Of a stretch of DNA of 64,000 nt, positions 14,039 through 41,201 are shown in pieces. Where the stretch lies: contig JAKCDU010000009.1 of the NCBI GenBank assembly GCA_021838445.1, positions 1 through 64,000 of the forward strand, written 5' to 3'. The position numbers and the translations under genes were made by a program. The DNA comes from Actinomycetes bacterium. GTDB taxonomy: Bacteria > Actinomycetota > Acidimicrobiia > Acidimicrobiales > Palsa-688. The first letter of the stretch is position 1. Each line of letters begins with the position of its first letter. Under the pieces are notes generated by a model, which had not been told where the DNA came from, made no database searches, and was given only the letters and a program-made list of their open reading frames with translations.

Positions 14039-15151
14039 GTGCTCACGCCCTACGACGACTACCCGATCCATCAGACGGCTGACCCCATCGCCCACCCGTC
14101 GAGCGGCGACCCCAACCACTACGACCGCTACTTCTTCAACGGCTTCAGCAGAGACGGCTCGACCTTCTTCGCGGCCGCCATGGGCCACTACCCCAACCGG
14201 GCCGTCGTAGACGCCGCCTTCAGTGTCATCTCCGGCGGGGTGCAGCGTTCGGTGTTCGCGTCCGGGCGCATGCCGCTCGACCGGGCCACTCGCGTCGGGC
14301 CGCTCGTGGTGGAGGTCGTCGAACCGCTGCGCACGGTCCGGCTGACGGTGGAACCAAACGATTTCGACCTGACTGCCGACCTGGTCTTCGAGGCCCGCAC
14401 GGTGGCTGTGGAGGAGCCGCGCAACACCATCACCTCGGGGACCCGCCGGGTCATGGACTCCACCCGACTCACCCAGTGGGGGCACTGGTCGGGGTCCATC
14501 GGGGTGGCCGGGCAGACCATCGCGGTGGATCAGGCCTATGGCGTGAGGGACCGGTCGTGGGGCCAGCGCGGCGTGGGCGCCCAGCTGGCCACCAACTTCG
14601 AGCCGCAGGTCCCGCAGGTCTTCTGGCTCTGGGCTCCCATCCACTTCGAGCACTTCTGCACCCACATGGCCATGTTCGAGTACGCCGACGGCCGCCGTTG
14701 GCTGGAGCAGGGCCTCAAGGTCCCGGTCCTCTCGGACGGCGCCCCGACATGGGGAGGGGCGCCCGACGTGGAACACCTGTCCGACATCGCCTACGAGATC
14801 GACTGGCAGCCCCGAACCCGGGTCGCCCGACGCTCCGCCTTCACCTTCAGCCCGGCGGGGGGAGCACGCCAACGGTTGGAACTGGAACCGCTCTACACCT
14901 TCCGGATGAGAGGTATCGGCTACACCCACCCGCAGTGGGGCCACGGCTCGCTGCACGGCGAGTTGGAGGTCGGCGGGGAGACCACCGCGCTGGAGGACTT
15001 CGACCCGCTCGAACCCTCCTCGATCCACGTGCAGTCGCTGTGCCGGGCCCGCCTCGGCGACCACGAGGGCATCGGCGTGCTGGAACAGCTGCACTTCGGG
15101 GCCCACGCCCCGACCGGCCTCACCGGTCTGGTCGACCCACCCCTTGGCTGA
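14039..15151 (+). CDS. CrtC/AttH lipocalin-like protein of unknown function
   Basis: A 370-aa beta-rich protein without signal peptide or membrane segments. The pattern of Trp-rich strands (TQWGHWSGS, VRDRSWGQRGVG, QVFWLWAPIHFEH, and the late GYTHPQWGHGSLHGE) resembles double-lipocalin proteins related to hydroxyneurosporene synthase (CrtC) and AttH. Such proteins bind hydrophobic molecules and some hydrate isoprenoids; the function here is not known. The start GTG 14039 was chosen over the long upstream open frame because that overlaps the GGDEF gene and because a -10 box is 5 nt away. It converges with an APH-type kinase, a pairing that suggests a shared hydrophobic substrate. Confidence 0.72.
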   Translation: MLTPYDDYPIHQTADPIAHPSSGDPNHYDRYFFNGFSRDGSTFFAAAMGHYPNRAVVDAAFSVISGGVQRSVFASGRMPLDRATRVGPLVVEVVEPLRTVRLTVEPNDFDLTADLVFEARTVAVEEPRNTITSGTRRVMDSTRLTQWGHWSGSIGVAGQTIAVDQAYGVRDRSWGQRGVGAQLATNFEPQVPQVFWLWAPIHFEHFCTHMAMFEYADGRRWLEQGLKVPVLSDGAPTWGGAPDVEHLSDIAYEIDWQPRTRVARRSAFTFSPAGGARQRLELEPLYTFRMRGIGYTHPQWGHGSLHGELEVGGETTALEDFDPLEPSSIHVQSLCRARLGDHEGIGVLEQLHFGAHAPTGLTGLVDPPLG

Positions 15152-15179: not shown

Positions 15180-16244
15180 TCAGCGCAGGAGCTCGGTGGC
15201 GCCGAGGTCCACGGCCTGAGCGGCCGCGCCGTTGGCCATGGTCACGAACATCTGGTCCCCCCGCTCGGTGCGCTCCACCATCATGGAGGCCGCCACCGCC
15301 ATGAAGAAGCCGGAGAAGCTGTGCCGGCGGTAGTCCTGCCAGCAGCGTTCCAGGGGGTAGTCGCCGATGGCGTAGGCGCACAGCCGCTCGTGGTAGGTCC
15401 GCACCATGTCCTGTTCGACGCGACGACGATCGAGGGGGTTCAGCGCGCCCGACAGGAAGTACGACACGTCGGAGACCCCCGAGCCGAGGCGCACCGTCTG
15501 CCAATCGACGACGATGACGGGACGGCTTCCGGCCGGGTCGCCGAAGAGGAGGTTGTCCAGGCGGAAATCGCTGTGGCACAACGTGAGCGGCCCGGGGTCG
15601 TCGGACAGCCACGTCGAGGGCCGGGCCAGTCGCTCGCCGACCTCGACCGACTCCTCGGTCAACTGTGCCCGGTAGCGCTGACAGAACTCCGGCCAGAGGA
15701 GCGCCACGATGGCTCCGACGTCCGGCGGGTCGGCGGCTCTGGCGGCCAGCCACGGCAGGTCCAGCAACGTGGGATCGGCCCAACGCGGTCCGTGGAGCCG
15801 GGCCGCCTGCTCCATCACCGGCACCACCGCGTCGGGTGCGCAGCCGGCGAGCTGGTCGCCGGGGACCGCGTCGACGTCCTCGAGCACGAGGACCACGTTG
15901 GCCGTGCCGGGCTGGACATCAGCGAAGTAGCAGCGCGGGCGGCACACCTCGACGGTGGTGGCCAGATCGCGGTAGAAGGCGACCTCCGTCTCGTAGGTCA
16001 GGGTCTGCACCCCGGCCGCCCGGCTGGTCTGCGAACGCGACGCGAACTTGACGACCACCGATGGGGGGCCGCCGCCGGGCCGGTCGTAGGTGAGCCGGTA
16101 GCGGATGTTGCAGCCGACCTGGCCGGTCCCGATGGGTGTGCCCTCGATCTCGGTGACGCGACCTCCCCCGAGGCCGCCACCCGCGTCGAGCACCGCGGTC
16201 ATCCATTCGGGCCCGACCTGGTCGGGATCCCACACGCCTTCCAT
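15180..16244 (-). CDS. Aminoglycoside phosphotransferase-like kinase
   Basis: A 354-aa APH/choline-kinase-fold protein. The catalytic loop LCHSDFRLDNLLFGD contains the Brenner HxDxxxxN motif, followed by the metal-binding VIVVDWQ; an ATP-binding Lys occurs in PSVVVKFAS. Relatives in actinobacteria are annotated as phosphotransferases near lipid genes and rarely modify antibiotics. ATG 16244 is preferred over GTG 16250 because the GGGGAGG site then has normal spacing. It is the last gene of a minus-strand run CoA-transferase, MpaB-like oxygenase, kinase, with 18 bp to the gene before it. Substrate unknown. Confidence 0.87.
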   Translation of the reverse strand: MEGVWDPDQVGPEWMTAVLDAGGGLGGGRVTEIEGTPIGTGQVGCNIRYRLTYDRPGGGPPSVVVKFASRSQTSRAAGVQTLTYETEVAFYRDLATTVEVCRPRCYFADVQPGTANVVLVLEDVDAVPGDQLAGCAPDAVVPVMEQAARLHGPRWADPTLLDLPWLAARAADPPDVGAIVALLWPEFCQRYRAQLTEESVEVGERLARPSTWLSDDPGPLTLCHSDFRLDNLLFGDPAGSRPVIVVDWQTVRLGSGVSDVSYFLSGALNPLDRRRVEQDMVRTYHERLCAYAIGDYPLERCWQDYRRHSFSGFFMAVAASMMVERTERGDQMFVTMANGAAAQAVDLGATELLR

Positions 16245-16262
16245 GAGCACCTCCCCTACCGC

Positions 16263-17057
16263 TCAGACTATCGGTCGGGCCAGGAGGGAACGCACCCGGA
16301 AGTCCCAGAGGAACCAGTTGAGGGGGAACCGCCGAGCCGGTCCGGGGAGTAGGCGGCGGGTCAGGGCCACCGCGGCGATGGCGGAGTCGAAGCGAGCCTG
16401 GTCGCCAGCTGACCATTCGAGGCCCATGGCGAGGCGGAACTCCGGCGCCAGGAACCCGGTCGTCAGCCAGAGGTTCCACGGCCCGTGGACGGCGCCGGCG
16501 GGGGATGGCAGGAAGCCCGAGGTGATCACATCCCACAGGTAGCGGTGGACCTTCGGGTCGATAGATATTCGCTGCAGACCGCCTGACCAGTAGTCCTCGA
16601 AAGCGGCCCGGTCCGGCGGCCACATCCCGGGTCGCACTTGCAAGGTGGTGCCGAGAGCCGCCGCGTCCCGGTAGAAGGCGTCAGCGTCGGCGCCGGCCAT
16701 GGGCCCGAAGAAGCGCCTGGCCACGTCCTCAGCGCCCCGGTAGAGGCAGGCCGCGACCCACAGCTGCAGTTGCGGGTCGGACGCATCGTAACCCACCGGG
16801 TGGCCCGGCCCGGAACGGACCGACTGGTGGGCCCGGCCCACCTCCGACCTCATGTGTCGGCGCTCGTCGTCACCGCCGAGGGTGGCGACGGCGAGATAGG
16901 TGAAGGTGGTGCGGAAGCGTTTGAGCGGATGGTCGCCGAGCCGTCCCGACTCCACGGTGCTTTCGAGCACGCCGTAGGCGACGGGAGGCCAGCTGAGCTG
17001 CATGACCACGTTGGCCGGTCCGGCCAGTATCGCTCCAAGACCGTCCAGCCGCTCCAT
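16263..17057 (-). CDS. Oxygenase MpaB family protein (DUF2236)
   Basis: A 264-aa protein of the MpaB/latex-clearing (Lcp)-related DUF2236 family. The N-terminal GPANVVMQLSWPPVAYGV helix, FRTTFTYLAVATLGGDDE with the following HxxV-type motif (GRAHQSV), and DPQLQLWVAACLY match the family, in which His residues bind a b-type haem or metal and cleave C=C or oxidise prenyl chains. It is 6 bp after the CoA-transferase gene and 18 bp before the kinase gene. With a CrtC-like protein opposite, an isoprenoid or other lipid substrate is a reasonable guess. Confidence 0.82.
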   Translation of the reverse strand: MERLDGLGAILAGPANVVMQLSWPPVAYGVLESTVESGRLGDHPLKRFRTTFTYLAVATLGGDDERRHMRSEVGRAHQSVRSGPGHPVGYDASDPQLQLWVAACLYRGAEDVARRFFGPMAGADADAFYRDAAALGTTLQVRPGMWPPDRAAFEDYWSGGLQRISIDPKVHRYLWDVITSGFLPSPAGAVHGPWNLWLTTGFLAPEFRLAMGLEWSAGDQARFDSAIAAVALTRRLLPGPARRFPLNWFLWDFRVRSLLARPIV

Positions 17058-18362: not shown

Positions 18363-19556
18363 ATGGCAGACATCGGGTTCGAGTTCTTCGACTGCGACAA
18401 CCATTACTACGAGGCGCGCGACGCCTTCACCCGCCACCTGGACCCCGAGTTTCGCAAGCGGGCCATGCAGTGGGCCGAGGTGGACGGGAAGACCAGGCTG
18501 CTGGTCGGAGGCCGGATCAATCGGTTCATCCCCAATCCCACCTGGGATCCGGTGTCCAAGCCGGGTGCTCTGGACGAGTACTTCAGGGGCCGGAACCCCA
18601 AAGGCGCCGACTCACCGGAGCTGTTCGGCGAGCTCGACGCCCTGGCCGACCATCCCGAGTACCAGGATCGCGATGCCCGTCTGGCCCTCATGGACCGTCA
18701 GGGCATGGAGGGGGCTATCTTCCTTCCCACCCTCGGGGTCGGGATGGAGCAGTCACTGCGTCACGACCCCCCGGCTGCGGTGGCCGCGTTCCGGGCGTTC
18801 AACCGGTGGATGGAGGAGGACTGGGGGTTCGCCTACCGGGAGCGCATCTTCGCCGCGCCGTACCTCACGCTCATCGACCCGGTGGCGGCCGAGGAGGAGG
18901 TGCGCTGGGCGGTCGAGCACGACGCCCGGTTCCTGGTCATGGTCGGGGGCCCCGTCGTGGCCAACGGGATGGGACGCTCGCCGGCCGATCCGACCTACGA
19001 CCGGTTCTGGTCGGTGGTGAACGATTCAGGGGTCACGGTCTGCTTGCACGGGGGGGACAGCTACTACTCCACCTACCTGGCCGACTGGGGCGAGGCCAGC
19101 GAGTCGCAGGCTTTCCGCCAGAATCCGTTCCGTTCCATCGTGTCGTCCGATCACCACCAGGACACCTTCGCCAGCTTCTTGGCCCATGGCCTGTTCCATC
19201 GCTTCCCCAATCTGCGCGTGGCGTCCATCGAGACCGGGTCGGCCTGGGTGTTCCACCTGTTCGAGAAGCTGAAGAAGTCCTTCGGCCAGACGCCCCGGGC
19301 CTACCCCGAGGACCCCCGCGAGACGTTCCGCCGCCACGTCTGGGTTTCCCCCTTCTACGAGGACGAGCTGGACCGCCTGCGGGACGTGATGGGCGCCGAG
19401 CGCATCCTGATGGGATCGGATTTCCCTCACGCCGAGGGACTGGCCGAGCCGGCGAGCTATGTCAAAGACCTGAAGAACTTCGCCTACAGCGACGAGGACT
19501 GCCGTCTCGTGATGCGGGAGAACGGTCTGGCTCTCGCTCGGCGCCGCCGCGCCTGA
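18363..19556 (+). CDS. Amidohydrolase family protein (amidohydrolase_2)
   Basis: A 397-aa metal-dependent hydrolase or decarboxylase. The metal strand FDCDNHYYEARDAFTRHL opens the protein, and the end of the barrel contains RILMGSDFPHAEG with the catalytic Asp and a His. It is closely related to the 391-aa protein at 40026 (same DxDNHYYEAxDAFTRHL start, WINPF/WVSPF and GSDxPH motifs). The ATG has GGGAGGG at 18348-18354. It diverges from the CoA-transferase unit. Such amidohydrolases are abundant in actinobacteria that degrade lipids and cyclic compounds; the substrate is unknown. Confidence 0.9.
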   Translation: MADIGFEFFDCDNHYYEARDAFTRHLDPEFRKRAMQWAEVDGKTRLLVGGRINRFIPNPTWDPVSKPGALDEYFRGRNPKGADSPELFGELDALADHPEYQDRDARLALMDRQGMEGAIFLPTLGVGMEQSLRHDPPAAVAAFRAFNRWMEEDWGFAYRERIFAAPYLTLIDPVAAEEEVRWAVEHDARFLVMVGGPVVANGMGRSPADPTYDRFWSVVNDSGVTVCLHGGDSYYSTYLADWGEASESQAFRQNPFRSIVSSDHHQDTFASFLAHGLFHRFPNLRVASIETGSAWVFHLFEKLKKSFGQTPRAYPEDPRETFRRHVWVSPFYEDELDRLRDVMGAERILMGSDFPHAEGLAEPASYVKDLKNFAYSDEDCRLVMRENGLALARRRRA

Positions 19557-19589: not shown

Positions 19590-20429
19590 TTACTCCCGAG
19601 CGAGGAGCTGATCGGGGCCGAGGCCGGTGAACGGCCTGAAATCGGGCCCCGAACGCAGGTTGTGGCCGCCGTCGACGGCGAGGTGCTGGCCGGTGATGCG
19701 GGCCGCGGCGGGCCCGAGCAGGAAGGTCACCGCCGAGGCGATGTCCTCAGGGGCGGACACCCCCCCGAGCGGAGTGTTGACCAGATAGCTCTCGTAGACC
19801 GCGCTGTCGCGGGGTATCCCCTCCATGATCTCAGTGGTGACGAAACCCGGCTGAACCGAGTTGAAGCGCACCCCGGCGGGCCCGTACTCGTCGGCCGCGT
19901 TGCGCATCATGGCGTCGACGGCGGCCTTGGCCACCGGGTAGGCACCGAACACCGGGTGGGTCGCGGTGGCTGCGATGGAGGACATCCCGACGAAGCTCCC
20001 CCCTCCGGCGGCGACCAGCCTGGGCACGGCGTGCTTGACGCAGAGCATCGTCCCGACCACGTTGAGGTCGAGCACCCTCCGGTACTCGGCCACGTCCTGG
20101 AGGTGGTAGGGCATCAGGCCGCCGCCCCCACCGGCGTTGGCCACCACCCCCCGGAGGTTGCCGGCGAAGGCGACGGTGGCCTCGACGGCCCCCGCCACGT
20201 CGTCCTCCACGGTAACGTCAGCGACGACCAGCTCCACGTGCAGCCCCTCGGCCCGCAGAGCCGAGGCGACTTCCTCGAGACGGCTCCTGGTCCGCCCACA
20301 GATCACCACCTGCGCTCCCTCCCGGGCGGCCGCCGCCGCGCACGCTTTACCGATACCGGTTCCTCCGCCGGTCACCAGGATGCCGCGACCGGCGAGACTT
20401 CCGCCGGATCGATCTTGCTGAGATGACAA
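19590..20429 (-). CDS. SDR family oxidoreductase
   Basis: A 279-aa classical SDR. The cofactor motif TGGGTGIG is near residue 20, ANAGGGGG replaces the usual NNAG, and the active-site Tyr/Lys are in YPVAK; the C-terminus has the usual VDGGHN. A dehydrogenase or reductase acting on a hydroxyl/keto group with NAD(P). The TTG at 20429 follows an AAGGGG site. It is the last gene of the minus-strand operon with the HAPMO-type monooxygenase, cupin and aminoacylase genes, so it may process the alcohol or ketone handled by the monooxygenase. Confidence 0.88.
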   Translation of the reverse strand: MSSQQDRSGGSLAGRGILVTGGGTGIGKACAAAAAREGAQVVICGRTRSRLEEVASALRAEGLHVELVVADVTVEDDVAGAVEATVAFAGNLRGVVANAGGGGGLMPYHLQDVAEYRRVLDLNVVGTMLCVKHAVPRLVAAGGGSFVGMSSIAATATHPVFGAYPVAKAAVDAMMRNAADEYGPAGVRFNSVQPGFVTTEIMEGIPRDSAVYESYLVNTPLGGVSAPEDIASAVTFLLGPAAARITGQHLAVDGGHNLRSGPDFRPFTGLGPDQLLARE

Positions 20430-20468
20430 ATCAAACCCCTTGTCGTGAAGTCGAGCAGTATCGCCGAG

Positions 20469-22403
20469 TCAGGCCATCGGCGTGAAATCGAAGTCGCCCA
20501 GGTCGGGCGCTTTGGTCCAGGACCAGTAGTCGACGAGGCGCCACGGGCTGAGCGTGTGGATCTCGCCGTGGGCGTTCTTGAAGTGCGAGTGGTGGATCGA
20601 AGGCTGGGCCCAGACGAGCGTCCGGATCTCCTCCTGGGTGCGGCGGTGCCAATCCTCGTAGACCTCCCGGCGCGGCTCCATGGCCTTGAAACCCCCGGAG
20701 ATGAGCACCTCCAGGCAGGCGCTGATGTAGCGCATCTGGCACTCAGAGTGGAATATCAGGCTGCCCCCATGCGCCAGGTTGGTCGCCGGCCCGTACATCA
20801 TGAACAGGTTGGGGAATCCGGGTACGGTGATCCCGAGGTGGGCGGCCGGCCGCTCACCCCACATCTCCCGCAGATCGACCCCGTCTCGTCCGACGATGTT
20901 CATCGGGTAGAGGAAGCGGTTCGAATGGAAGCCGGTGGCGTAGACGATGACATCGGCGGGGTGACGCTCACCGTCGACGGTGACGATGGCGTCCGCTTCG
21001 ATGCGCTCGACCGCGGTGCGGATCAGGTCCACGTCGTCCCGGCGCAGGGTCTGCAGCCAGCTCCCGTTGTCCTGGAGCGTGCGTTTGCCGGTGGCCGGGT
21101 AATCGGGCACGACCTTGGCCAGCAACTCGGGATCGTCGCCCACCTGGCTCTCTATCCACTGGGTGAAGTGTTGGCGGGTGAGCTCATTGAGCTCGGAGAC
21201 GGCGCGCTGCTGGTCGGGGTAGTCGGGGTCGACGCGGGCTCCCTGCAGGCCGCTGTCGCAGGCCGGCCAGAAGATCAAGAAGCGGTACCAGCGTCCGTAG
21301 AACGGAAGGTGGCGCAGCGCCCAGCGCACCCCGGGACCGACCAGGGCGTGGTAGTTGGGGTTGGGGAACATCCACTGCGCAGTGCGCTGGAAGATCGACA
21401 GGTGACCGACCTCTGCGGCAATGGCTGGAGCGATCTGGAACCCGGTGGCGCCGGCGCCGACCATGGCGACGCGCTTGCCGGAAAGCTCGACGCTGTGATC
21501 CCACCGGGCCGAGTGGAACGACGGGCCCGCGAAAGTGTCCCGGCCGGGGAAGTCGGGGATGTGCGGCCGGTTGAGTTGCCCCACGGCGCTGATCACGGCC
21601 CGGGCTTTCATCTCGGACAGCTCGCCGAGCGAGTTGCGCACGGTTACGGTCCACACGCCGGTGGCGTCGTCCCAGGCCATCGCCACCACTTCGGTCTGCC
21701 AGCGCACGTGGGGCTCGATGCGGTGCTTGGTCATGACCGAGGTGAAGTAGGCCTGCAGCTCGGGCTGGCGGGCGAAGTACTCGCTCCAGTGGTCGCTCGG
21801 TTCGAAGCTGTAGCAGTAGAAGTGGTTACCGACGTCGACACGGGCGCCGGGGTAGGTGTTCTCCCACCACGTTCCCCCCGGACCGGCGTTCTTCTCGACG
21901 ATGGTGAAGGGGATGCCGGCCTCTTTGAGTCGGATACCGGCCAGCAGCCCCGACTCTCCGCAGCCGACGACGACCACCGGGAACTGCTCGCGGTCATCGC
22001 CGGCCGCGGGCGGCGCCCGCCGGGCGTCGGTGCCGTCGAGCTCCATCTCCTCCATGAGCATCGGCACGTATTCGAGGGGTACGTCGGCGCACGCCAGCCA
22101 GGACATCATCTCCCGGAGCAGCTCCGCCGACACCGGCTCGGGCTCGGGGCAGCCGCGGTCGCGGTAGTCGGAGATGATGGGCAGGGCCAGCTGCCTCACC
22201 CGCTCCTTGTCCTCCTCGGACATGAAGCCCTGAACCTCGTTGAGGAACAGGCCGGCCGGCCGCAGGGGACCTCGGATCAGTTCGGGGTCGCCGGACATGT
22301 GCACGAGCGAGAGCATCAGAGTTGGGATGCTCACATCCCCAAGCGCGGCCGCGATCTCGTCGTCCGGGGTGTCGAAGGGCTCCCCGGCGTGTGGGTTACG
22401 CAA
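20469..22403 (-). CDS. HAPMO-type Baeyer-Villiger flavin monooxygenase
   Basis: A 644-aa FAD/NADPH enzyme. Residues 1-140 are a helical N-terminal extension as in 4-hydroxyacetophenone monooxygenase (about 640 aa). The FAD motif GCGESG is at 147-152, the BVMO fingerprint FAGPSFHSARWD at 291-302, and the NADPH motif VGAGATG at 315-321. It would insert oxygen beside a carbonyl to form an ester. The start is TTG at 22403; later starts would cut into the conserved extension. It follows the cupin gene by 16 bp. Whether acetophenones or other ketones (steroid, cyclic) are substrates cannot be read from sequence. Confidence 0.88.
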   Translation of the reverse strand: MRNPHAGEPFDTPDDEIAAALGDVSIPTLMLSLVHMSGDPELIRGPLRPAGLFLNEVQGFMSEEDKERVRQLALPIISDYRDRGCPEPEPVSAELLREMMSWLACADVPLEYVPMLMEEMELDGTDARRAPPAAGDDREQFPVVVVGCGESGLLAGIRLKEAGIPFTIVEKNAGPGGTWWENTYPGARVDVGNHFYCYSFEPSDHWSEYFARQPELQAYFTSVMTKHRIEPHVRWQTEVVAMAWDDATGVWTVTVRNSLGELSEMKARAVISAVGQLNRPHIPDFPGRDTFAGPSFHSARWDHSVELSGKRVAMVGAGATGFQIAPAIAAEVGHLSIFQRTAQWMFPNPNYHALVGPGVRWALRHLPFYGRWYRFLIFWPACDSGLQGARVDPDYPDQQRAVSELNELTRQHFTQWIESQVGDDPELLAKVVPDYPATGKRTLQDNGSWLQTLRRDDVDLIRTAVERIEADAIVTVDGERHPADVIVYATGFHSNRFLYPMNIVGRDGVDLREMWGERPAAHLGITVPGFPNLFMMYGPATNLAHGGSLIFHSECQMRYISACLEVLISGGFKAMEPRREVYEDWHRRTQEEIRTLVWAQPSIHHSHFKNAHGEIHTLSPWRLVDYWSWTKAPDLGDFDFTPMA

Positions 22404-22419
22404 CTCGGTCCGGGCGGGA

Positions 22420-22878
22420 TCAGTCGGTGAGCACGGATGGGCGACCCAGTCCCTGCTGCTCGCAGAGAGCCAGGTAGTGGGCCAGTGTCCCGGCGCCGTC
22501 GCTGACCGACTCGATATTGCCGTCGGAGTCGAGGTTGAGGTTCATGCCGAGCATGTGGAACCAGACCCGGGTGTCGTCCTCGATGCACTGGAGCGTGTGG
22601 ACCGAGTTGGCCGGTTCGTAGAGGAATGATCCGGCCCGGTTGACGTAGTCGTATTCCTTGTACTTCCAGCCACCTGAGCTCGTGTAACCCCAGACCGGAC
22701 CGGTGTGGCGGTGGGTCTGCACCTCGAAGCCGGCTTGGAACACGTTCTCGATGATCCAGAGGCTCTCCTTCTCCCGGACCTGCAGGACCCGGATGAGGTT
22801 GCCGCCCCCCAGGTCGGCGAAGGGGATCTCGTCCACTCCGAGGTGGACGGCGGTGGGGACGCCGGTGGCGATGCTCAT
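22420..22878 (-). CDS. Cupin, 2,4-prime-dihydroxyacetophenone dioxygenase family
   Basis: A 152-aa single-domain cupin. Metal-binding histidines are H56 and H58 in THRHTG and H94 in ANSVHTL; the usual cupin Glu is absent, giving a three-His site like that of 2,4-prime-dihydroxyacetophenone dioxygenase (DAD), which splits the side chain of hydroxyacetophenones. The GWKYKEYDYVNRAGSFLYEP stretch also fits that family. Its ATG overlaps the stop of the aminoacylase gene (ATGA), and the monooxygenase gene is 16 bp downstream. A dioxygenase role is inferred from family and neighbours. Confidence 0.78.
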   Translation of the reverse strand: MSIATGVPTAVHLGVDEIPFADLGGGNLIRVLQVREKESLWIIENVFQAGFEVQTHRHTGPVWGYTSSGGWKYKEYDYVNRAGSFLYEPANSVHTLQCIEDDTRVWFHMLGMNLNLDSDGNIESVSDGAGTLAHYLALCEQQGLGRPSVLTD

Positions 22879-24605
22879 TTGGCTCTGGCTCCTCTGATCA
22901 GGGCGCCGGGAACGGCGCCGGTGCTCTCTCCGTGGTCGAAGGTGACCTGGCCGGACTTGACGGTGTACTCGTAACCCTCGGCCCGCTGAATCAGGCGGCG
23001 GGCGCCTCCCGGCAGGTCGTGGACCAGTTCGGGGCGGTGCAGCCCGATGCGCTCGGCGTCTATGACGTTGATGTCACCGGTCAGGCCGGGCACCAGCCGG
23101 CCCCGGTCGCCGAGCCCGTAGAGGTCGGCGGTGACCGATGTGATCTGGCGTACCGCCTCCTCGATCGGTATGCGGCCGCTCCGGCGGTCGCGGGCCCAGT
23201 AGCTGAGCATGAACGTCGTGGTCGACGCGTCACACGTCTGACCGGCGTGGGCGCCGCCGTCGCCGAGGCCGAACACCGTGTCCGGGTGGACCAGCATGGC
23301 CCTGGTGGCCTCGAGGTCCCCGCTGCTGTAGTTCAGCACCGGCGCGTTCAACAGTTGGCGGCCGCCGTCCTCGAGGAGGGCGTCGAGGAAGGTCGTCCAC
23401 ACGTCGGCCCGGCGCGACGAGGCGATCCCGGCCACGCTGTCGGAGGGGGCCGGCTCGTAGTTGGGGGGGTCGCCGAGCAAATAGGTGCGGCCCGGCGACA
23501 TGAACCCCTGGATCATGGCGTCGGTTTCCACCGCGCGCGCCCCCTCGATCAGACGGCGGCGCAGGTCGTCGTCGGCCTGGATCCTCGCCACCTGCTCTTC
23601 CCAGGGGAGCAGCCCGAGCATGGCTTCGGTCCATACCGGTGTGAAGGAGAACGGGTGGAAGGTCTGGAAGCCGAGCAGCACCGATACGGTGCGGGCCGTG
23701 ACCTGCGGTCGCAGTGGAGCGCCCGCCGCGTTGGCCTCGGAGACCAGGTCCAAGAGCTTGCGCCACTGGTCGGGATCGGCGTTGTTCTGGTTGAGCACGA
23801 ACGACACCGGCCGGTGGGACTCGGCGGCGAGGCGGCGCATCCAGGCGATCTCCTTCTCGGGAGCGGCCAGGTCCTCGCCCAGCGCGCCCGCCGCGGCCAA
23901 CTCGAACACGCCGGTCCCGAGCTCACCGAGGACCCGGCCGATACCGAACAGCTCGTCCTCGGCGGCGAAGGTGCCGGGCACCGGCTCGCCGTCGATGGCT
24001 CGGTGGGCCAGGGTCCGGCTGGTCGAGAAGCCGAGGGCGCCGGCGGCGATGCCTTCCCGCACGAGGGCGGCCATCGCTTCGATGTCCTGGGCGGTGGCCG
24101 GCTCGTTGCGGGCGCCCCGCTCGCCCATGATGAAGGCCCGGATGGCGCCGTGGGGCACCTGGGTGCCTACGTCGAGCGCTTTGGGGGCCCGCTCGACGGC
24201 GTCGAGGTACTCCGGGAAGCTCTCCCACGCCCACTTGATGCCGCTGGCCAGGGCCGCTCCGGGGATGTCCTCCACCCCTTCCATCAAGCCGATCAGCCAC
24301 TCCCTGCGGGAGGGTTCGCAGGGCGCGAAGCCGACCCCGCAGTTGCCCATGACGACCGTGGTCACGCCGTGCCAGCCAGTCGGGCTGAGGCTCGGGTCCC
24401 AGGTGACCTGGCCGTCGAAGTGGGTGTGCACGTCGACGAAGCCGGGCGTGACCAGAGCCCCGTCGGCGTCGATCTCCCGACGGGCCGGACCGTCCACCCG
24501 GCCCACCTCGCGGATCAGACCGTCGGTCACCGCCACATCCGCGGCGCGCGCCGGGGCCCCGGTCCCGTCGACCACGGTGCCGCCTCGAATCACCAGATCG
24601 TGCAT
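22875..24605 (-). CDS. N-acyl-D-amino-acid deacylase-type amidohydrolase
   Basis: A 576-aa amidohydrolase of the D-aminoacylase branch. A beta-sandwich start MHDLVIRGGTVVDGTGAP leads to VTPGFVDVHTHFDGQ with the metal HxH pair; GLGDGGAHAGQTCDAS near the C-terminal part of the barrel carries the conserved Asp. The family removes acyl groups from D-amino acids, but many members hydrolyse other amides. ATG 24605 is chosen because AGGGGG precedes it and the upstream open frame is not homologous. First gene of the four-gene operon, with a TAGCAT element farther upstream. Confidence 0.88.
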   Translation of the reverse strand: MHDLVIRGGTVVDGTGAPARAADVAVTDGLIREVGRVDGPARREIDADGALVTPGFVDVHTHFDGQVTWDPSLSPTGWHGVTTVVMGNCGVGFAPCEPSRREWLIGLMEGVEDIPGAALASGIKWAWESFPEYLDAVERAPKALDVGTQVPHGAIRAFIMGERGARNEPATAQDIEAMAALVREGIAAGALGFSTSRTLAHRAIDGEPVPGTFAAEDELFGIGRVLGELGTGVFELAAAGALGEDLAAPEKEIAWMRRLAAESHRPVSFVLNQNNADPDQWRKLLDLVSEANAAGAPLRPQVTARTVSVLLGFQTFHPFSFTPVWTEAMLGLLPWEEQVARIQADDDLRRRLIEGARAVETDAMIQGFMSPGRTYLLGDPPNYEPAPSDSVAGIASSRRADVWTTFLDALLEDGGRQLLNAPVLNYSSGDLEATRAMLVHPDTVFGLGDGGAHAGQTCDASTTTFMLSYWARDRRSGRIPIEEAVRQITSVTADLYGLGDRGRLVPGLTGDINVIDAERIGLHRPELVHDLPGGARRLIQRAEGYEYTVKSGQVTFDHGESTGAVPGALIRGARAK

Positions 24606-24775
24606 CCGATCCCCCTGTCTCATCTGTCGGCCCGATGCTAAAGGCTCCCGGGCCGGTCGCTCCACGCCCCGGGACCCGCCGTGCCGCTGGGCAGGACTGC
24701 GGCCTGGGCCCGGGCCTTTCCGTCGGCGCCCAGTCCGGCGCCCCGGCTGCTTCCGCTGGGGCCGGTGCCGCTGCT

Positions 24776-24781
24776 TAGAGT
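24776..24781 (+). promoter_or_regulatory. -10 box of a leaderless promoter
   Basis: TAGAGT, 6 nt before the GTG of the aldo/keto reductase at 24788. Confidence 0.6.
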
Positions 24782-24787
24782 GGTCGG

Positions 24788-25765
<978 letters not shown>

Positions 25766-25812: not shown

Positions 25813-27525
25813 CTAGCGGGGGACGGTGAGCAGCAGACACCCGGCGATGGGGCCGCCGCCCACCCCGACCACCGCGACCTCGGGAGCTCGGGGAACCTGC
25901 CTGTCGCCGGCTTGGCCGCGCATCTGCAGGCAGGCTTCGTGCAGCACCCAGTAGCCGTGCATACGACCGGCGGACAGCTGACCCCCGTAGGTGTTGAGGG
26001 GGAGCTCGCCGGTGAGGCATATACGGCTGGCCCCTTCGACGAAAGGACCCGATTCGCCCTCTCCGCACAGCCCTAGGGCTTCCAGCCAGGCCAGGGTCAA
26101 GAACGTGAACCCGTCGTAGAGCTGGGCCATCTGCACATCCCCGGGCCTCAACTCCGTGCGGTTCCACATGTCCGCGGCGGCGTCCCAGGACGCCATCCTC
26201 GGGTAGTCGGGACGGTGGAACCACCCGCCCGTGCCGGGCGAGACGCCGATGGCTTCGAGGCGCGGGGTGCGGTGGGGGGCGTCGGGCCCGTAGGCGGCGC
26301 TGGACAGCACGAAGGCGATGGAACCGTCGACCGGCACATCGCAGTCGAGCAGCCCGAACGGGCTCGACACCGGGCGTGCGGCCATGTAGTCGTCCATCGT
26401 CATGGGGTCCCGGTAGACGGCGGCGGGGTTCAGTCCGGCGTTTCGCCGGGAGTTGACGGCCAGCCACCCGAGCTGCTCTTTGGTGGTGCCGTAGAGGTCC
26501 ATGTGCCGGCGGGCGGTCAAGGCCAGCCAGTTGGCTGCCGAGAAGGCGTTGGCCGCCAGCAGCTCCCCGGCGTCGACCATCACCCGACCGAGCGCGGCCA
26601 GGGCGTCGCCGGCCGGCCGTTGTGCTCCGTCGGTCGGGGCCATGCCACCGCCGAGCATCTGCACCGTCCGGTAGACCACCACGTGGCGGGCCCGTTGCTC
26701 GCCGATGGCTGCGCCCGCCGCCATGACCGGGGCCAGCAGGCCTCCCTCCTCGACGCTGCCCCCGCTGAAGCGGGGCTCGATACCGAGAGCCCGGGCCACC
26801 TCGGCTGGCGGGGTGTCGCCGAGGGAGGCCAACCCGTCGATGTCGCCGGGTTCCAGCCCGGCGTCGGCGATGGCCTCCCTCACCGCCGCCATCGTCATCT
26901 CGGCGTGGGCCTGGCCGGTGCGCCGACCGATGCGGGACATCCCGATACCGGAGATGACCGCTCCCCGTTCCGGTGCCGTCGCCGGCCGCGCCGTCCCGGC
27001 GGCATTTCGGCCGGCTCCGACCGCCGCCCGGTCGGTCCCCGCCGTCGGGGTTGCTTCGACGGCCTCCGGCGGCCCGGGATTCCTCGCCGACCCCGTGCCC
27101 CCGTCAGCGCCATCGACCGGTCGGAAGACCGGGTAGAAGAGCTCGCCGTGGTTCTCGAAGGCGACGGCCAGCTCCATGCCCGGGCCCAAATCGGCCTCCG
27201 TGCAGTCGATCAGGTTGGTGGCCAGGCGCAGGTCGTCCTGCTCGACCAGGACGACGATGGCTATCAGGTAGGGGACGGGGAGGTCAGGGTGGTAGGGGTG
27301 ACTGTTGGTCGTCCAGGTGAGTAGGTGGGCCCGGCCGCTCGCCGCGACCGCCAGGAGCCCCTGCCGGCAGCCGGGGCACAGGGTCTGAGGGGGCAGCGCC
27401 CACCGCCCACACCCTGGACAACGCCCCACCATCAGACGCCCCTCCCGTCCCCCTTCGAGGAAGGCCCGGTTCTCGTCGGTGACGGGCGGGAGGTTACGGG
27501 CCGCTACGGGTTCCACTTCGGTCAT
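25813..27525 (-). CDS. DUF35 OB-fold/zinc-ribbon protein fused to a thiolase-like (lipid-transfer, Ltp2-type) domain
   Basis: A 570-aa fusion. Residues about 20-140 are a DUF35 module: rubredoxin-like zinc ribbon CPGCGRWALPPQTLCPGC, then an OB fold. A Pro/Ala/Gly-rich linker (about 140-190) leads to a thiolase-like domain starting AVISGIGMSRIG. The usual nucleophilic Cys block (CASG) is missing and a conserved YDGFT segment is present, as in steroid side-chain aldolases of the Ltp2 type, which work with a separate DUF35 partner (ChsH2). A retro-aldol or CoA-lipid role is inferred. ATG 27525 is preferred over 27534 because TAGGAT lies 7 nt ahead of it and overlaps the other ATG. Confidence 0.82.
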   Translation of the reverse strand: MTEVEPVAARNLPPVTDENRAFLEGGREGRLMVGRCPGCGRWALPPQTLCPGCRQGLLAVAASGRAHLLTWTTNSHPYHPDLPVPYLIAIVVLVEQDDLRLATNLIDCTEADLGPGMELAVAFENHGELFYPVFRPVDGADGGTGSARNPGPPEAVEATPTAGTDRAAVGAGRNAAGTARPATAPERGAVISGIGMSRIGRRTGQAHAEMTMAAVREAIADAGLEPGDIDGLASLGDTPPAEVARALGIEPRFSGGSVEEGGLLAPVMAAGAAIGEQRARHVVVYRTVQMLGGGMAPTDGAQRPAGDALAALGRVMVDAGELLAANAFSAANWLALTARRHMDLYGTTKEQLGWLAVNSRRNAGLNPAAVYRDPMTMDDYMAARPVSSPFGLLDCDVPVDGSIAFVLSSAAYGPDAPHRTPRLEAIGVSPGTGGWFHRPDYPRMASWDAAADMWNRTELRPGDVQMAQLYDGFTFLTLAWLEALGLCGEGESGPFVEGASRICLTGELPLNTYGGQLSAGRMHGYWVLHEACLQMRGQAGDRQVPRAPEVAVVGVGGGPIAGCLLLTVPR

Positions 27526-27532
27526 GGGCGGC

Positions 27533-27538
27533 ATCCTA
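27533..27538 (-). promoter_or_regulatory. -10 box of a leaderless promoter
   Basis: TAGGAT on the minus strand, 7 nt before the ATG at 27525; it overlaps the alternative ATG at 27534, which argues against that start. Confidence 0.6.
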
Positions 27539-27569: not shown

Positions 27570-29726
27570 TCAGTTGATCAGAGGGTCGCGGGGCAGTCCC
27601 AGAATGCGCTCACCGATCTGGTTGCGCTTGATCTCCGACGTCCCGCCGGCGATAGACAGGGCCCGACTGCCCAGGGTGGCCCGCGCACCGGGCATCCCCG
27701 GGCCGTCGAGGAAGGCGGAGTCGGCGCCGCCGACGGCGAAGAGGATCCGGGCTGCCTCCTGTACCAGTTCGGACAGCACCAGCTTGGTGATGGCTCCCTC
27801 CGGTCCCGGTTCGCCTCCGGCCACGGCCCGGTGAGCGCTGCGCATGTTGAGCAGTTCGGTGGCCTGCTGCTGGGCGATGTACCGGCCGAGGCGCTCGGCT
27901 CCCCCGGCCAGGCGTTCGGGGGCGGCGTCGTAGGGCTGGAGTAGGGCCCCGTGGGGGATGCTCAGACCCCCCCCTCCGCCACCGATGCTCACGCTCTCGT
28001 TGCCGAGAGTGGCCCGGGCCACGGTCCAACCGCCGTCCACCGGGCCGACCACGTCGTCGTCGGGGACGAACACGTCGTTGAAGAAGACCTCGTTGAAGTC
28101 CGAGTCGCCGGTGGCTTGGCGGAGCGGACGCACCGTGACCCCCGGACCGTGCATGTCGATCACCATCATGGTGATGCCCTTGTGCTTGGGCACGTCGGGG
28201 TCGGTGCGGATGGTCGCCAGCCCGTAGGAGGCCAGATGGGCTCCGCTCGTCCACACCTTCTGGCCGTTGACCAGCCAGCCGCCCTCTACCCGCTTACCGC
28301 GGGTCTTGATGCCCGCCGCGTCGGAGCCGGCGTCGGGCTCGCTGAAGAGCTGACACCAGATGACCTCCTGGGCCAGGGCGGGGGCCACCCAGCGGGCGAT
28401 CTGGTCCTCGGTGGCGTGCTGCACCAGAGTCAGGATCACCCAGCCGGTGATCCCGTACTGCGGCTTGTGTATCCCCGCCGCGGCGAACTCCTGCTCGATC
28501 ACCAGCTGCTCGACCGCCCCGGCGTTGCGGCCCCAGGGCCTGGGCCAGTGGGGGACGGCGTAGCCGCTGTCGAGCATGGCCGTCCGCCGGTCCTCGTGGC
28601 TCATGTCCTTGACCTGCTCGACGAAGCGCACCACCTCCTGGCGTATGGTCTCGGCCTCCGGGGGCAGGTCCACGGCTCGGCTGCGGACCACACCGGCGCG
28701 GGCCTGGTCGGTGACGTCACGGGCCGTCTGGTCGGTGTCGAGCAGGGCGGCGATGGCCGCCGCCCGGCGGAGGTAGAGATGGGCGTCGTGCTCCCAGGTG
28801 AACCCGATGCCTCCGTGCACCTGGATGTTGGTCTGGGCGTTCTCCAGCGCCGCCGGGACGGCCAGAGTGGCGGCGATAGCCGCGCTGTAGGCCCGCTCGG
28901 CGGGCCCGCTGCGCCCGGCGCGCGACGCGTCCCAGGTGGACGAGGTGGCCAGCTCGGCGGCGACGGCCATGTTGGCGCAGTGGTGCTTGACGGCCTGGTA
29001 AGTGCCGATCGGCCGCCCGAACTGGATCCGGTCACGGGCGTACTGGGCGGCCATCTCGGTGGTGGCGGAGGCCACCCCGGTGGCTTCGGCGGCCAGGAGG
29101 ACCCGGGCCGTGTCGATCAGTATCTGCCGACCGCCGGTGATGATCTGCGCCGGCGCGCCGCTGAAGGTGACATGCGCCGAGCGTCGGGCGGGGTCGAGGT
29201 TGGACAGCTCCTCGAGCTTCACGCCGTTCGCGGCGCGCTCCACCACCGCCACGTCGTCGCCGGCCACCACGACGAGCAGGTCGGCTGTCGGGGCTCCAAG
29301 CACGCCGGGAGCCCGCCCCGACACGGCGCCGCCCGACACGCTCAGGTCGCCCCGCAGGCCGATCGCCGCGGTTCGGGACCCGTCGGCCAGCCCGGGAAGC
29401 AGAGCACTCCGCAACCGGTCACTCCCGGCTTCGGCGATGGTGGCACTGGCGATGACGGTGGGCACGAACGGCCCGGGGCAGATGGCCCGGCCGAGCTGTT
29501 CCACCACGACGACGAGCTCGGGCAGGCCGAAGCCCGAGCCGCCCAGATCCTCGGGCAGGTGCAGGCCCAACCAGCCGAGGGATGCCATCTCGGCCCAGAA
29601 GGCCGGTAGGCCTTCCGAGTCGGCTTCGAGGAGGGCCCGGTTGGCGCTTCGAGCACCGCTCTTGGCCAGGAAGTCCCGGGCCGTTTCGGCTAGAGCCTGG
29701 TGGTCATCGGAAATGGCGATGGGCAT
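27570..29726 (-). CDS. Two-domain acyl-CoA dehydrogenase, FadE34-like
   Basis: A 718-aa protein made of two acyl-CoA dehydrogenase domains in tandem. Domain 1 (about 1-350) has GLHLPEDLGGSGFG and QVHGGIGFTWEHDAHLYLRR; domain 2 (about 370-718) has CQLFSEPDAGSD, GQKVWTSGAH and SIAGGTSEIKRNQIGERILGLPR. This layout and length match FadE34/CasC-type enzymes, which dehydrogenate the CoA-activated side chains of cholesterol or bile acids with FAD. The ATG at 29726 is 6 nt from TAGGTT. The DUF35-thiolase gene follows on the same strand with its own promoter. Confidence 0.88.
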   Translation of the reverse strand: MPIAISDDHQALAETARDFLAKSGARSANRALLEADSEGLPAFWAEMASLGWLGLHLPEDLGGSGFGLPELVVVVEQLGRAICPGPFVPTVIASATIAEAGSDRLRSALLPGLADGSRTAAIGLRGDLSVSGGAVSGRAPGVLGAPTADLLVVVAGDDVAVVERAANGVKLEELSNLDPARRSAHVTFSGAPAQIITGGRQILIDTARVLLAAEATGVASATTEMAAQYARDRIQFGRPIGTYQAVKHHCANMAVAAELATSSTWDASRAGRSGPAERAYSAAIAATLAVPAALENAQTNIQVHGGIGFTWEHDAHLYLRRAAAIAALLDTDQTARDVTDQARAGVVRSRAVDLPPEAETIRQEVVRFVEQVKDMSHEDRRTAMLDSGYAVPHWPRPWGRNAGAVEQLVIEQEFAAAGIHKPQYGITGWVILTLVQHATEDQIARWVAPALAQEVIWCQLFSEPDAGSDAAGIKTRGKRVEGGWLVNGQKVWTSGAHLASYGLATIRTDPDVPKHKGITMMVIDMHGPGVTVRPLRQATGDSDFNEVFFNDVFVPDDDVVGPVDGGWTVARATLGNESVSIGGGGGGLSIPHGALLQPYDAAPERLAGGAERLGRYIAQQQATELLNMRSAHRAVAGGEPGPEGAITKLVLSELVQEAARILFAVGGADSAFLDGPGMPGARATLGSRALSIAGGTSEIKRNQIGERILGLPRDPLIN

Positions 29727-39166: not shown

Positions 39167-39964
39167 CTGGGCGTGGGCGTCGATGGGGTTGGCGACGTCC
39201 AGCTGGAGCCGCTCCACCAGCCTCTGGGGGGCGAAGGTCCGGCCCGGAGCGGCGATGTCGGCCACCCAGTACCAGGCCAGGTACGAACCGATGAGGATCA
39301 TCAGCACCCCGCCGGCCTGCGGCACCCAGCGCGACAGCCTTCTGAGCGGGCGCCCCGCGCCGCGTCCCGCGACGGCCATCCCCACGGCCAGGGCGGCCAG
39401 GATGGTGCCCATCCCCAGTCCGTAGGCGAGCAGGCCGGTCACCCCCCGGAAGGAGCCGTTCTGGCTGAAGCTGGCGGCCACCCCGCCGACGAAGAGGGGC
39501 AGGGCGCAGCCGATCGAGGCCACGCCGTAGGAGAAGCCGAACACCGCCAGGCCGGCGGGCCGCCTCAGCCCGGCGCCGGTGCCGAGCTCGGGGAGGGGAA
39601 GCTTGAATGACCGGCGCGTCAGAGTGAGCACCCCGATGGCGACCATGGCGACGCCGAAGGCGACCATCACGTAGCTGGCGACCGTCGCCGACCTTCCGAC
39701 GGCCGCTGACCAGCCTGCCTCGGTGAGCAGCCCGAGGACGCCGAAGAGCACCAGGAAGCCGACGGTGGTGTAGACCGCCCCCACTACGGCCCTCAACGAG
39801 CGCGCCGCCAGCCCGTCGTGCTCGCCGGCGGCGCCGACGAACAGCTCCGAGTAGGCGGGCAGCAGAGGGAAACCGCACGGGTTGACGGCGGCCATCATCC
39901 CCAGCGTGTAGGGGTAGAGCAGCGACGAGGAGGCCACGACCCCCTCGATGCTACGTAGGCCCAC
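38834..39964 (-). CDS. CcdA/DsbD-type transmembrane thiol transporter
   Basis: A 376-aa frame. Residues 1-290 form a six-segment CcdA-like membrane protein: AAVNPCGFPLLPAY carries the first redox Cys, and GFSYGVASIGCALPLF the second. It moves electrons across the membrane for cytochrome c maturation or other thiol reduction. The last 85 residues are Arg/Gly-rich, not family-like, and read antisense to ureD, so the functional part probably ends near 39100. No thioredoxin partner is adjacent. The start at 39964 faces the amidohydrolase gene at 40026. Confidence 0.82.
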   Translation of the reverse strand: MGLRSIEGVVASSSLLYPYTLGMMAAVNPCGFPLLPAYSELFVGAAGEHDGLAARSLRAVVGAVYTTVGFLVLFGVLGLLTEAGWSAAVGRSATVASYVMVAFGVAMVAIGVLTLTRRSFKLPLPELGTGAGLRRPAGLAVFGFSYGVASIGCALPLFVGGVAASFSQNGSFRGVTGLLAYGLGMGTILAALAVGMAVAGRGAGRPLRRLSRWVPQAGGVLMILIGSYLAWYWVADIAAPGRTFAPQRLVERLQLDVANPIDAHAQLIGALLGAAVLVAVLAGGVARPAPARRGEVRDRLGEGPLGFDAAVPESHGVAAGTLERADAPTLTGGGRGAAVAGGQGERHDPVGADQRRPLPAGVPGVQRVAEQRPSAR

Positions 39965-40002
39965 CCGCTTCGGCCAGACAGGCCCGCCTCTTCCCCAAAA
40001 GC

Positions 40003-40020
40003 AGAACGTGTTCTACAGTT
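40003..40020 (+). promoter_or_regulatory. KstR-like palindrome overlapping a leaderless -10 box
   Basis: CAGAACGTGTTCTA (40003-40016) matches the mycobacterial KstR operator pattern TnnAACnnGTTnnA except for the first base; its core is AGAAC-GT-GTTCT. TACAGT (40015-40020), 5 nt before the ATG at 40026, is the -10 box and shares two bases with the palindrome, so a bound repressor would block the promoter. The regulator itself is not in the window. Confidence 0.6.
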
Positions 40021-40025
40021 GTGGC

Positions 40026-41201
40026 ATGGACACGACGGGACCGGTGTGGGATGGCGACAACCACTACTACGAGGCGACCGACGCCTTCACCAGGCACCTG
40101 GCCAAGCAGGACGGGCCCCGCTGTGTGCAGTGGGCGACCATCGACGGCCGTCAGTACCACGTCATCGGCGGACGGGTCAGCCGGGCCGTGGCCAACGCCA
40201 CGTTCGACCCGGTGGCCAAGCCGGGCTGCCTGAGCGAGTACTTCCGCGGCAACCCCAACGGCCTCAACCCGCTGGAGATACTGAAAGACCACGAGCCGGT
40301 CCGCCCCGAGTACCACCGCCCCGACGCCCGGGTCGAGACGCTCGACCGTCAGGGCGTGGAGGGCTGCTTCATGTTCCCCACCCTCGGGATGATCTACGAG
40401 GAGCTGCTCAAGCACGACCCGGTGGCGGTCTGCAAGACCTTCCGGGCCTTCAACCGGTGGCTGGCCGAGGACTGGCCCTTCGACTACCAGGGGAGGATCA
40501 TCTCGGCGCCCTACCTGACGCTGGCCGACGTCGACTGGGCTGTCGAGGAGTTGGAGTGGGTGCTCGACCAGGGTGCCCGTCTCATCGTGATGCGCACCGC
40601 GGCGCCCACGACCGAGATCGGGCGGCGTAGCCCCTTCGACCCGATGTTCGACCCGTTCTGGGCCCGCCTCAACGAAGCCGGAGTCACCCTGGTCGTGCAC
40701 GCCGGCGACAGCGGACCCAGCTCCGACGGCTACGCAGTGGACGGTTTCGCCGCCACCTTCAAGGGTGGCTCGGTGCCGTCCGTCAAGAGCTTCGCCATCG
40801 AGAAGGCCGTCCACGACTACCTGCTGTCGATGGTGCTGGCCAATCACTTCACCCGCTTCCCCCGACTGCGGGTGGCCTCGGTGGAGAACGGCGCCGAGTT
40901 CCTCCCCGACCTGTTCCGCAAGCTGCGCTCCCAGGAGCGCAAGATGAAGGGCTACTTCGCCGACGACCCGGTGGAGATCTTCCGCCGGCACATCTGGATA
41001 AACCCGTTCTGGGAGGACGACCTGCAATCGGTGGTGGAGTGGATGGGCTCCGACCGGGTCATGTTCGGATCCGACTGGCCTCACATCGAGTCACTGCCCG
41101 AGCCGCTCGACTATCTGCCCGAGACCAAGGTGCTGTCCGACCGGGACCGCCGTCTGGTCCTCCACGACAACGCGCTGGAGTTGGCCCGACCGCTGGCCTG
41201 A
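40026..41201 (+). CDS. Amidohydrolase family protein (amidohydrolase_2)
   Basis: A 391-aa paralogue of the protein at 18363. It opens with VWDGDNHYYEATDAFTRHL (metal strand), contains TLVVHAGDSG, and ends the barrel with RVMFGSDWPHIES. Expected to be a metal-dependent hydrolase or decarboxylase; substrate unknown. ATG 40026 is chosen over the longer frame because a -10 box ends 5 nt before it and the homology starts there. A KstR-like operator suggests control together with sterol or lipid catabolism. It converges with an MFS gene. Confidence 0.9.
   Translation: MDTTGPVWDGDNHYYEATDAFTRHLAKQDGPRCVQWATIDGRQYHVIGGRVSRAVANATFDPVAKPGCLSEYFRGNPNGLNPLEILKDHEPVRPEYHRPDARVETLDRQGVEGCFMFPTLGMIYEELLKHDPVAVCKTFRAFNRWLAEDWPFDYQGRIISAPYLTLADVDWAVEELEWVLDQGARLIVMRTAAPTTEIGRRSPFDPMFDPFWARLNEAGVTLVVHAGDSGPSSDGYAVDGFAATFKGGSVPSVKSFAIEKAVHDYLLSMVLANHFTRFPRLRVASVENGAEFLPDLFRKLRSQERKMKGYFADDPVEIFRRHIWINPFWEDDLQSVVEWMGSDRVMFGSDWPHIESLPEPLDYLPETKVLSDRDRRLVLHDNALELARPLA

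Follow-up and report, generated by a model that had tools for sequence, protein, structure and literature searches.

The described systems closest to the locus considered here are 2,4'-dihydroxyacetophenone dioxygenase (DAD) of Alcaligenes sp. 4HAP (structures 4p9g and 5bpx) and 4-hydroxyacetophenone monooxygenase (HAPMO). The former converts 2,4'-dihydroxyacetophenone into 4-hydroxybenzoate and formate, and the latter oxidises 4-hydroxyacetophenone. In DAD, the iron is bound by His76, His78 and His114, and Tyr93, Val82, Phe129 and Glu108 are invariant; the phenolic hydroxyl group is held by Asp63 and Trp61 and the ring is stacked by Phe43 and Phe129, according to the structure paper (PMC4219425). 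HAPMO carries an N-terminal extension, as reported in PMC10028610. Genes for a DAD-type cupin and for a Baeyer-Villiger monooxygenase (BVMO) with a HAPMO-type extension lie next to each other in the window, i.e., the whole analysed stretch of 64,000 nucleotides from an Acidimicrobiales bacterium (contig JAKCDU010000009.1 of assembly GCA_021838445.1), which is contig C29 of the 4.0-Mb draft genome G000. A preliminary description of this DNA had placed both genes in one operon with a hydrolase and a short-chain dehydrogenase/reductase (SDR) and had proposed an undescribed aryl-ketone or related degradation route. The four-gene operon was confirmed, with all four open reading frames located on the minus strand (Table 1). 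Our comparisons tentatively point to a lineage-specific operon around a cupin whose family is the conserved partner of a CYP125-like P450, with all of these enzymes acting on the same ketone, a reading that we hold with confidence a little short of even.

The three-histidine site by which the cupin had been likened to DAD was borne out, as the iron ligands H56, H58 and H94 (DAD His76, His78 and His114) were invariant in all 43 aligned relatives. Y73, F107 and E88, the counterparts of Tyr93, Phe129 and Glu108, were likewise kept in 43/43 and V62 (Val82) in 42/43, and Trp61 is matched by W41 in the alignment with 5bpx, from which the DAD residues were mapped by hand (position 53 of the 5bpx chain being His76). 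Other positions of the DAD pocket were replaced: Asp63 by I43 (V in 25, I in 17 and L in 1 of the 43 sequences), Phe43 by L23 (I in 35, L in 7 and V in 1), and Leu65, Leu135 and Trp137 by the asparagines N45 (41/43), N113 (43/43) and N115 (43/43). Judging from these residues, the C-C cleaving centre of DAD is retained and the iron chemistry is predicted to be DAD-like. An acetophenone substrate is not indicated, because the residues recognizing the hydroxyphenyl group and the hydrophobic pocket positions are replaced. The family name is weak evidence, since NCBI puts the label '2,4'-dihydroxyacetophenone dioxygenase family protein' on distant relatives as well.

The nearest solved structures by sequence were 3ebr and 3cjx from Ralstonia eutropha JMP134 (about 28-31% identical, uncharacterised proteins), followed by DAD (5bpx, 4p9g). 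The cupin structure predicted from the 43 relatives, with a mean predicted local distance difference test score (pLDDT) of 94.6, best matched the folds of 3cjx, 3ebr, acetylacetone dioxygenase (3bal and 2o1q) and DAD, at Z scores of 18.0-20.4 compared to 13.1 for the next fold. In this model, residues 40-47 and 113-116 form strands, by which positions 41/43/45 and 113/115 would each face the same direction, as in DAD. As 3bal and 2o1q are level with DAD (Z 18.2 and 18.1 vs. 18.0) and an SDR gene follows the cupin both in the window and in L089, the corresponding locus of a sister genome, the cupin might instead be a beta-diketone dioxygenase like Dke1, cleaving a 1,3-diketone made by a P450 and the SDR. 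However, identity to 3bal and 2o1q was 17-19% in the same alignments that gave 28% for DAD, and we regard this alternative as quite unlikely.

Scanning the named genomes with a cupin profile yielded 247 loci, the best 80 of which were read. Genes were called with a codon model, and the two loci in which the cupin remained uncalled (L108 and L142) were left out, giving n = 78. In 62 of these loci, one P450 family was present; the two genes adjoined in 44, and in 39 the P450 came straight after the cupin in the same orientation, separated by no more than 30 nt in 35 cases. The usual partner of the cupin is thus this P450 and not the BVMO with which it had been paired in the preliminary description. 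Carriers of the cupin-P450 pair include Frankia, Mycobacterium, Embleya, Streptomyces, Halieaceae and Spongiibacteraceae. Distances among cupins and among P450s correlated (rho 0.59 against a maximum of 0.196 in 2000 permutations, 35 pairs), to which the shared descent of the hosts contributes. The cupins of the window, L088 and L089 were sister in the tree to those of G047 and G069, two genomes that both have the cupin-P450 pair (support 100/94 for G047 and G069 and 100/96 for the group of five). The window genome G000 possesses an orthologous P450 on contig C106, 77% identical to that of G069 and neighboured by a gluconolactonase-like gene, a regulator, a CaiB-type gene and others (names read from sequence). 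As the sister cupins are paired with the P450 and that of G000 is located on C106, the pair was split in the window lineage.

Among solved structures, CYP125, CYP124 and CYP268 came closest to the cupin-linked P450. The nearest of these were the steroid and branched-lipid P450s CYP125/CYP124 (8vxi, 5dqn, then 2wm4); the cupin-linked enzyme forms a subfamily of its own, differs from them in its cupin partner and, in this genome, lies outside the window. A literature search that extended to few subscription papers brought up no account of the cupin-P450 pair. The one cupin beside a P450 in PMC10879549, named Cupin type-1, belongs to a flaviolin cluster, and in PMC10866074 lignin ketones are reported to induce a DAD-like gene. 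On a Mycobacterium branderi plasmid (L206, 6645-9421), a cupin of the same superfamily (39%) is flanked by two P450 genes, and a plasmid relative of the cupin in Prescottella equi has no P450 in the stretch read.

A cupin that adjoins one P450 family across many otherwise unrelated settings could also be a metal-binding protein that regulates the P450 or chaperones it, rather than a pathway enzyme, and its Pfam family, Cupin_7 ('ChrR Cupin-like domain'), includes the ChrR anti-sigma domain. This explanation appears very improbable to us, as the catalytic residues named for DAD show little or no variation among the 43 sequences and ChrR structures ranked far below DAD among the matches of the cupin model.

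Co-occurrence was determined irrespective of position in 298 genomes of the order, representing 172 genera, at cut-offs of E 1.5e-50 or better for the cupin, 1e-120 for the P450, 1e-39 for the N-terminal domain of the BVMO and 1e-210 for the hydrolase. The P450 was found in 31 of the 35 genomes with a close cupin compared to 44 of all 298, and in 20/20 genera with a close cupin compared to 26/172 overall. Genomes with a close BVMO N-terminal domain (24) had the P450 in 22 and the cupin in 17 cases, the latter occurring in 35/298 overall; among the next 20 genomes with a weak match to this domain (3e-18 to 3e-10), which served as a control, the P450 was present in 2 and the cupin in 1. A close hydrolase (20 genomes) was accompanied by the P450 in 11 and by the cupin in 9, and cupin, P450 and BVMO were all present in 16 genomes. 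In G210, which belongs to another genus and family, the three genes form a cupin-P450-BVMO operon with overlaps of 4 nt each (L063), the BVMO being 57% identical to that of the window. Cupin and BVMO, the co-occurrence of which elsewhere the preliminary description had left to be established, are therefore found together beyond this locus. In G002, from the same genus as G210, the P450 adjoins a BVMO 59% identical to that of the window (L239), and in G113 (L204) a cupin has a P450 and an extension-less BVMO (35%) at a distance of two genes. L068-L071 contain close BVMO relatives with neither cupin nor P450 alongside.

The flavoenzyme itself displays both the N-terminal extension and the BVMO fingerprint previously ascribed to it. 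GxGxxG-type stretches occur at positions 147 and 316, GGTWWENTYPGARVD at 176 and the fingerprint FAGPSFHSARWD at 291, corresponding to FxGxxxHxxxW[PD] and two dinucleotide-binding motifs. The Asp in TYPGARVD and the Arg in RRDDV, which we take to be the catalytic pair of BVMOs, align with identical letters of the Thermocrispum cyclohexanone monooxygenase 5m0z. Ahead of the FAD domain, residues 1-135 represent a conserved domain in its own right, and the solved relatives (cyclohexanone, phenylacetone and steroid monooxygenases) match only from about residue 126 onward. The likeness to HAPMO is one of features, i.e., fingerprint and extension, its membership in the HAPMO clade being putative. 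The start codon coincides with an ATG in the orthologue L068. Matches to part of the BVMO were found in 957 plasmid records, 70 of which matched at least 80% of its length; the best, on plasmids of Rhodococcus, Rhizobium and Sphingobium, are of the same length and 37-42% identical, indicating a broad family. No cupin was found in the context of the plasmid relatives H1, H3, H7 and H18, and a P450 lies within the stretch in two of them.

We infer from these comparisons that P450, cupin and BVMO share one ketone as substrate. The SDR would make or recycle this ketone from an alcohol, and the P450 would hydroxylate the carbon next to the carbonyl, which in a methyl ketone is its methyl group. As DAD chemistry needs an alpha-hydroxyketone and P450s of the CYP125 kind hydroxylate terminal methyl groups, the P450 could supply the substrate of the cupin. 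The latter, as an Fe(II) enzyme of the DAD type, would cleave the alpha-hydroxyketone to a carboxylic acid and formate, whereas the BVMO would cut the ketone in its unhydroxylated form, giving an ester or lactone for hydrolysis by the Amidohydro_3 enzyme. Hydroxyacetophenones are improbable candidates for this ketone; in the best reading, the oxygenase set attacks a larger cyclic or non-aromatic ketone. A ketone resembling a terpenoid or steroid would fit better and might be set free by the DUF35-Ltp2-like protein encoded nearby. More speculatively, the three oxygenases might constitute an undescribed ketone module, in which the CYP125-like P450 alpha-hydroxylates, the cupin removes that carbon as formate and the BVMO provides an alternative way of cutting the same ketone, the P450-cupin part being a two-gene unit distributed from Acidimicrobiia and Frankia to Halieaceae; we consider this possible, though rather doubtful. 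If true, many genes named after acetophenone would serve the oxidative shortening of non-aromatic ketones by P450 and cupin, a one-carbon removal paralleling beta-oxidation and Baeyer-Villiger cleavage, and many orphan CYP125-like P450s of environmental Actinobacteria and marine Gammaproteobacteria would gain a testable partner.

Ltp2 enzymes release a steroid ketone. Both halves of the DUF35-Ltp2 fusion encoded near the operon match the steroid side-chain aldolase Ltp2-ChsH2(DUF35) 6ok1, and the base Tyr of its YDHF motif is kept as YDGF. In contrast to the aldolase, the protein is a single fused chain, and it carries G and R, respectively, at the positions of TcLtp2 His296 and the acid Tyr344 (for the roles of the YDHF Tyr, the His and Tyr344 see PMC12329534). 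Unfused DUF35 and Ltp2-like counterparts are located immediately after the cupin in freshwater Acidimicrobiia.

Several observations weigh against a common ketone route of this kind. Due to the replacement of the acid Tyr by Arg and of the His by Gly, the link of the fusion protein to ketone release is weak. No P450 was present in 16 of the 78 loci, some of which end at contig ends, and most of the more divergent cupins that were read have no P450 beside them. The detached P450 on C106 may have changed its role. Cupin and BVMO were at most 20 kb apart in only 3 of the 298 genomes (G000, G210 and, at 17 kb and with a 37% N-terminal domain, G219). The co-occurrence cut-offs were picked after the lists had been seen, and shared ancestry was handled by genus counting alone, genera not being independent. 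Finally, ester hydrolysis by the Amidohydro_3 enzyme is a guess.

In the aryl-ketone route as originally proposed, BVMO and DAD-like cupin would both attack (hydroxy)acetophenones, with phenyl acetates as the products of one branch and 4-hydroxybenzoate plus formate as those of the other. The family names and the retained catalytic residues of DAD are in line with such a route. In addition, G000 harbours genes read as pcaH, pcaG, pcaB and a pcaDC fusion at a contig end, so that an aryl-ketone substrate would be possible downstream, although the cupin pocket argues otherwise. In the near relative G298, the pca genes are accompanied by a PobA-like gene, scoring 447 bits and thus below the curated cut-off of 538.7, but no PobA match was obtained in G000 or G299. 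A comparison of L237 with L238 located this PobA-like gene next to the pca genes in G298 and showed its absence at the corresponding place in G000. Moreover, no downstream genes of the HAP (hydroxyacetophenone) type were seen beside the operon, and the constant partner of the cupin is a CYP125-like P450. Together with the exchanged pocket residues, these findings make the aromatic route improbable. Of the original proposal, the joint ketone route has thus gained support by the co-occurrence data and the G210 operon, whereas an aryl ketone as its substrate is not supported by the pocket residues and the P450 partner.

The lineage-specific character of the operon became apparent from the distribution of the four-gene order. 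To the best 80 of the 247 loci, 20 further loci of the class were added, in one of which (L217) the cupin was uncalled. Within this set, the four-gene order was restricted to the window and L088, which has the whole window cluster and is 94.9% identical in DNA over 20 kb; the arrangement, which had been suggested as a feature to be sought in other genomes, is therefore not widespread. The sister genome locus L089 has the same flanks, and its shared operon-region proteins are 87-93% identical to those of the window. There, the cupin adjoins the SDR gene, the sole operon gene still following it, and a PrmC-like gene occupies the slot of the hydrolase. A search of L089 for remnants of BVMO and hydrolase found none, and as the best matches in that genome reached just 52% and 58%, respectively, it lacks orthologues of both. 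Hydrolase and BVMO are thus lineage-specific members of the operon, and the difference may reflect a gain in the window lineage or a loss in L089. Window, L088 and L089 thereby provide a natural comparison with and without these two enzymes. In L189 of the sister genome (G299, contig C358, 7026-11765), a BVMO (49%), an Amidohydro_3 enzyme (44%) and another P450 occur in a row, i.e., the same gene types in another arrangement. The titles of the metagenome-assembled genomes of L088, L096, L103, L107, L111 and L132 (Acidobacteriota, Acidobacteria, Bifidobacterium breve) do not fit, as these loci group with Acidimicrobiia-like sequences.

The state of L089, with neither BVMO nor hydrolase nor any trace of them, would also fit chance neighbours, i.e., the case that cupin, BVMO and hydrolase had been shuffled together in a catabolic island with no common compound, and the nearest BVMO and hydrolase relatives elsewhere indeed sit away from any cupin. 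However, an operon uniting cupin, P450 and a member of the same BVMO subfamily exists in a second lineage, that of G210, and the co-occurrence of the three subfamilies greatly exceeds that in the weak-BVMO control. We therefore rate a chance assembly as unlikely, if less so than the other alternatives considered, and retain a shared ketone substrate as the preferred reading.

The hydrolase had been described as being of the D-aminoacylase type, which holds for residues 2-200 and 469-575, where the D-aminoacylase profile aligns, and not for the middle of the chain, which does not align and where the central barrel with the second metal site would be expected. Within the aligned parts, H60 and H62 (HxH) and C89, the cysteine of GNCG, are invariant in 14 sequences. 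As D-aminoacylase aligns with the chain ends only, deacylation by this enzyme is not indicated. In the tree, the window hydrolase was nested among copies located away from cupins, its nearest relative, in G069, not being beside a cupin. In freshwater Acidimicrobiia, a different Amidohydro_3 branch lies directly upstream of the cupin, and the pairing of Amidohydro_3 and cupin accordingly arose at least twice, suggesting a common task. The SDR displays both classical motifs, TGxxxGxG and YxxxK.

In the order of transcription, the hydrolase and cupin genes overlap by 4 nt, and the distances between cupin and BVMO and between BVMO and SDR are 16 and 39 nt, respectively. The operon comprises exactly four genes, since it is flanked by a divergent aldo-keto reductase gene (24788-25765, +) and a convergent Amidohydro_2 gene (18363-19556, +).

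Table 1. Features of the operon and its surroundings in the window.
Feature	Position	Strand	Basis
SDR dehydrogenase, 279 aa	19590-20429	-	Open reading frame list; Pfam adh_short_C2; YPVAK at residue 164
Type I BVMO with HAPMO-type N-terminal extension, 644 aa, TTG start	20469-22403	-	Open reading frame list; Pfam FMO-like
BVMO N-terminal extension domain, residues 1-135	21999-22403	-	Matches in 97/298 genomes of the order; no solved structure aligns to the domain
DAD-type three-His cupin, 152 aa	22420-22878	-	Open reading frame list; Pfam Cupin_7; member of the P450-partner subfamily
Amidohydro_3 metallohydrolase, 576 aa, first gene of the operon	22875-24605	-	Open reading frame list; Pfam Amidohydro_3
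Divergent region between operon and aldo-keto reductase gene, 182 bp	24606-24787	.	Intergenic; expected promoter location of the operon
Fusion of ChsH2-type DUF35 (16-140) and Ltp2-like thiolase-fold (191-568) domains, outside the operon	25813-27534	-	Best solved matches 6ok1 chains B and A

Further genes were noted in the surroundings of the operon. The flanking Amidohydro_2 gene has a related copy in the window (39948-41201, +), with 67% DNA similarity in part. A single chain of 718 aa with two acyl-CoA dehydrogenase halves is encoded at 27570-29726 (-). An ecdysteroid-kinase-like phosphotransferase gene and a gene with an MPAB/Lcp-type oxygenase domain, close to the operon at 15180-17057 (-), are syntenic in L089. 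The 370-aa protein encoded at 14039-15151 (+) has no Pfam match and recurs near the cupin or the P450 in L191, L204 and L257.

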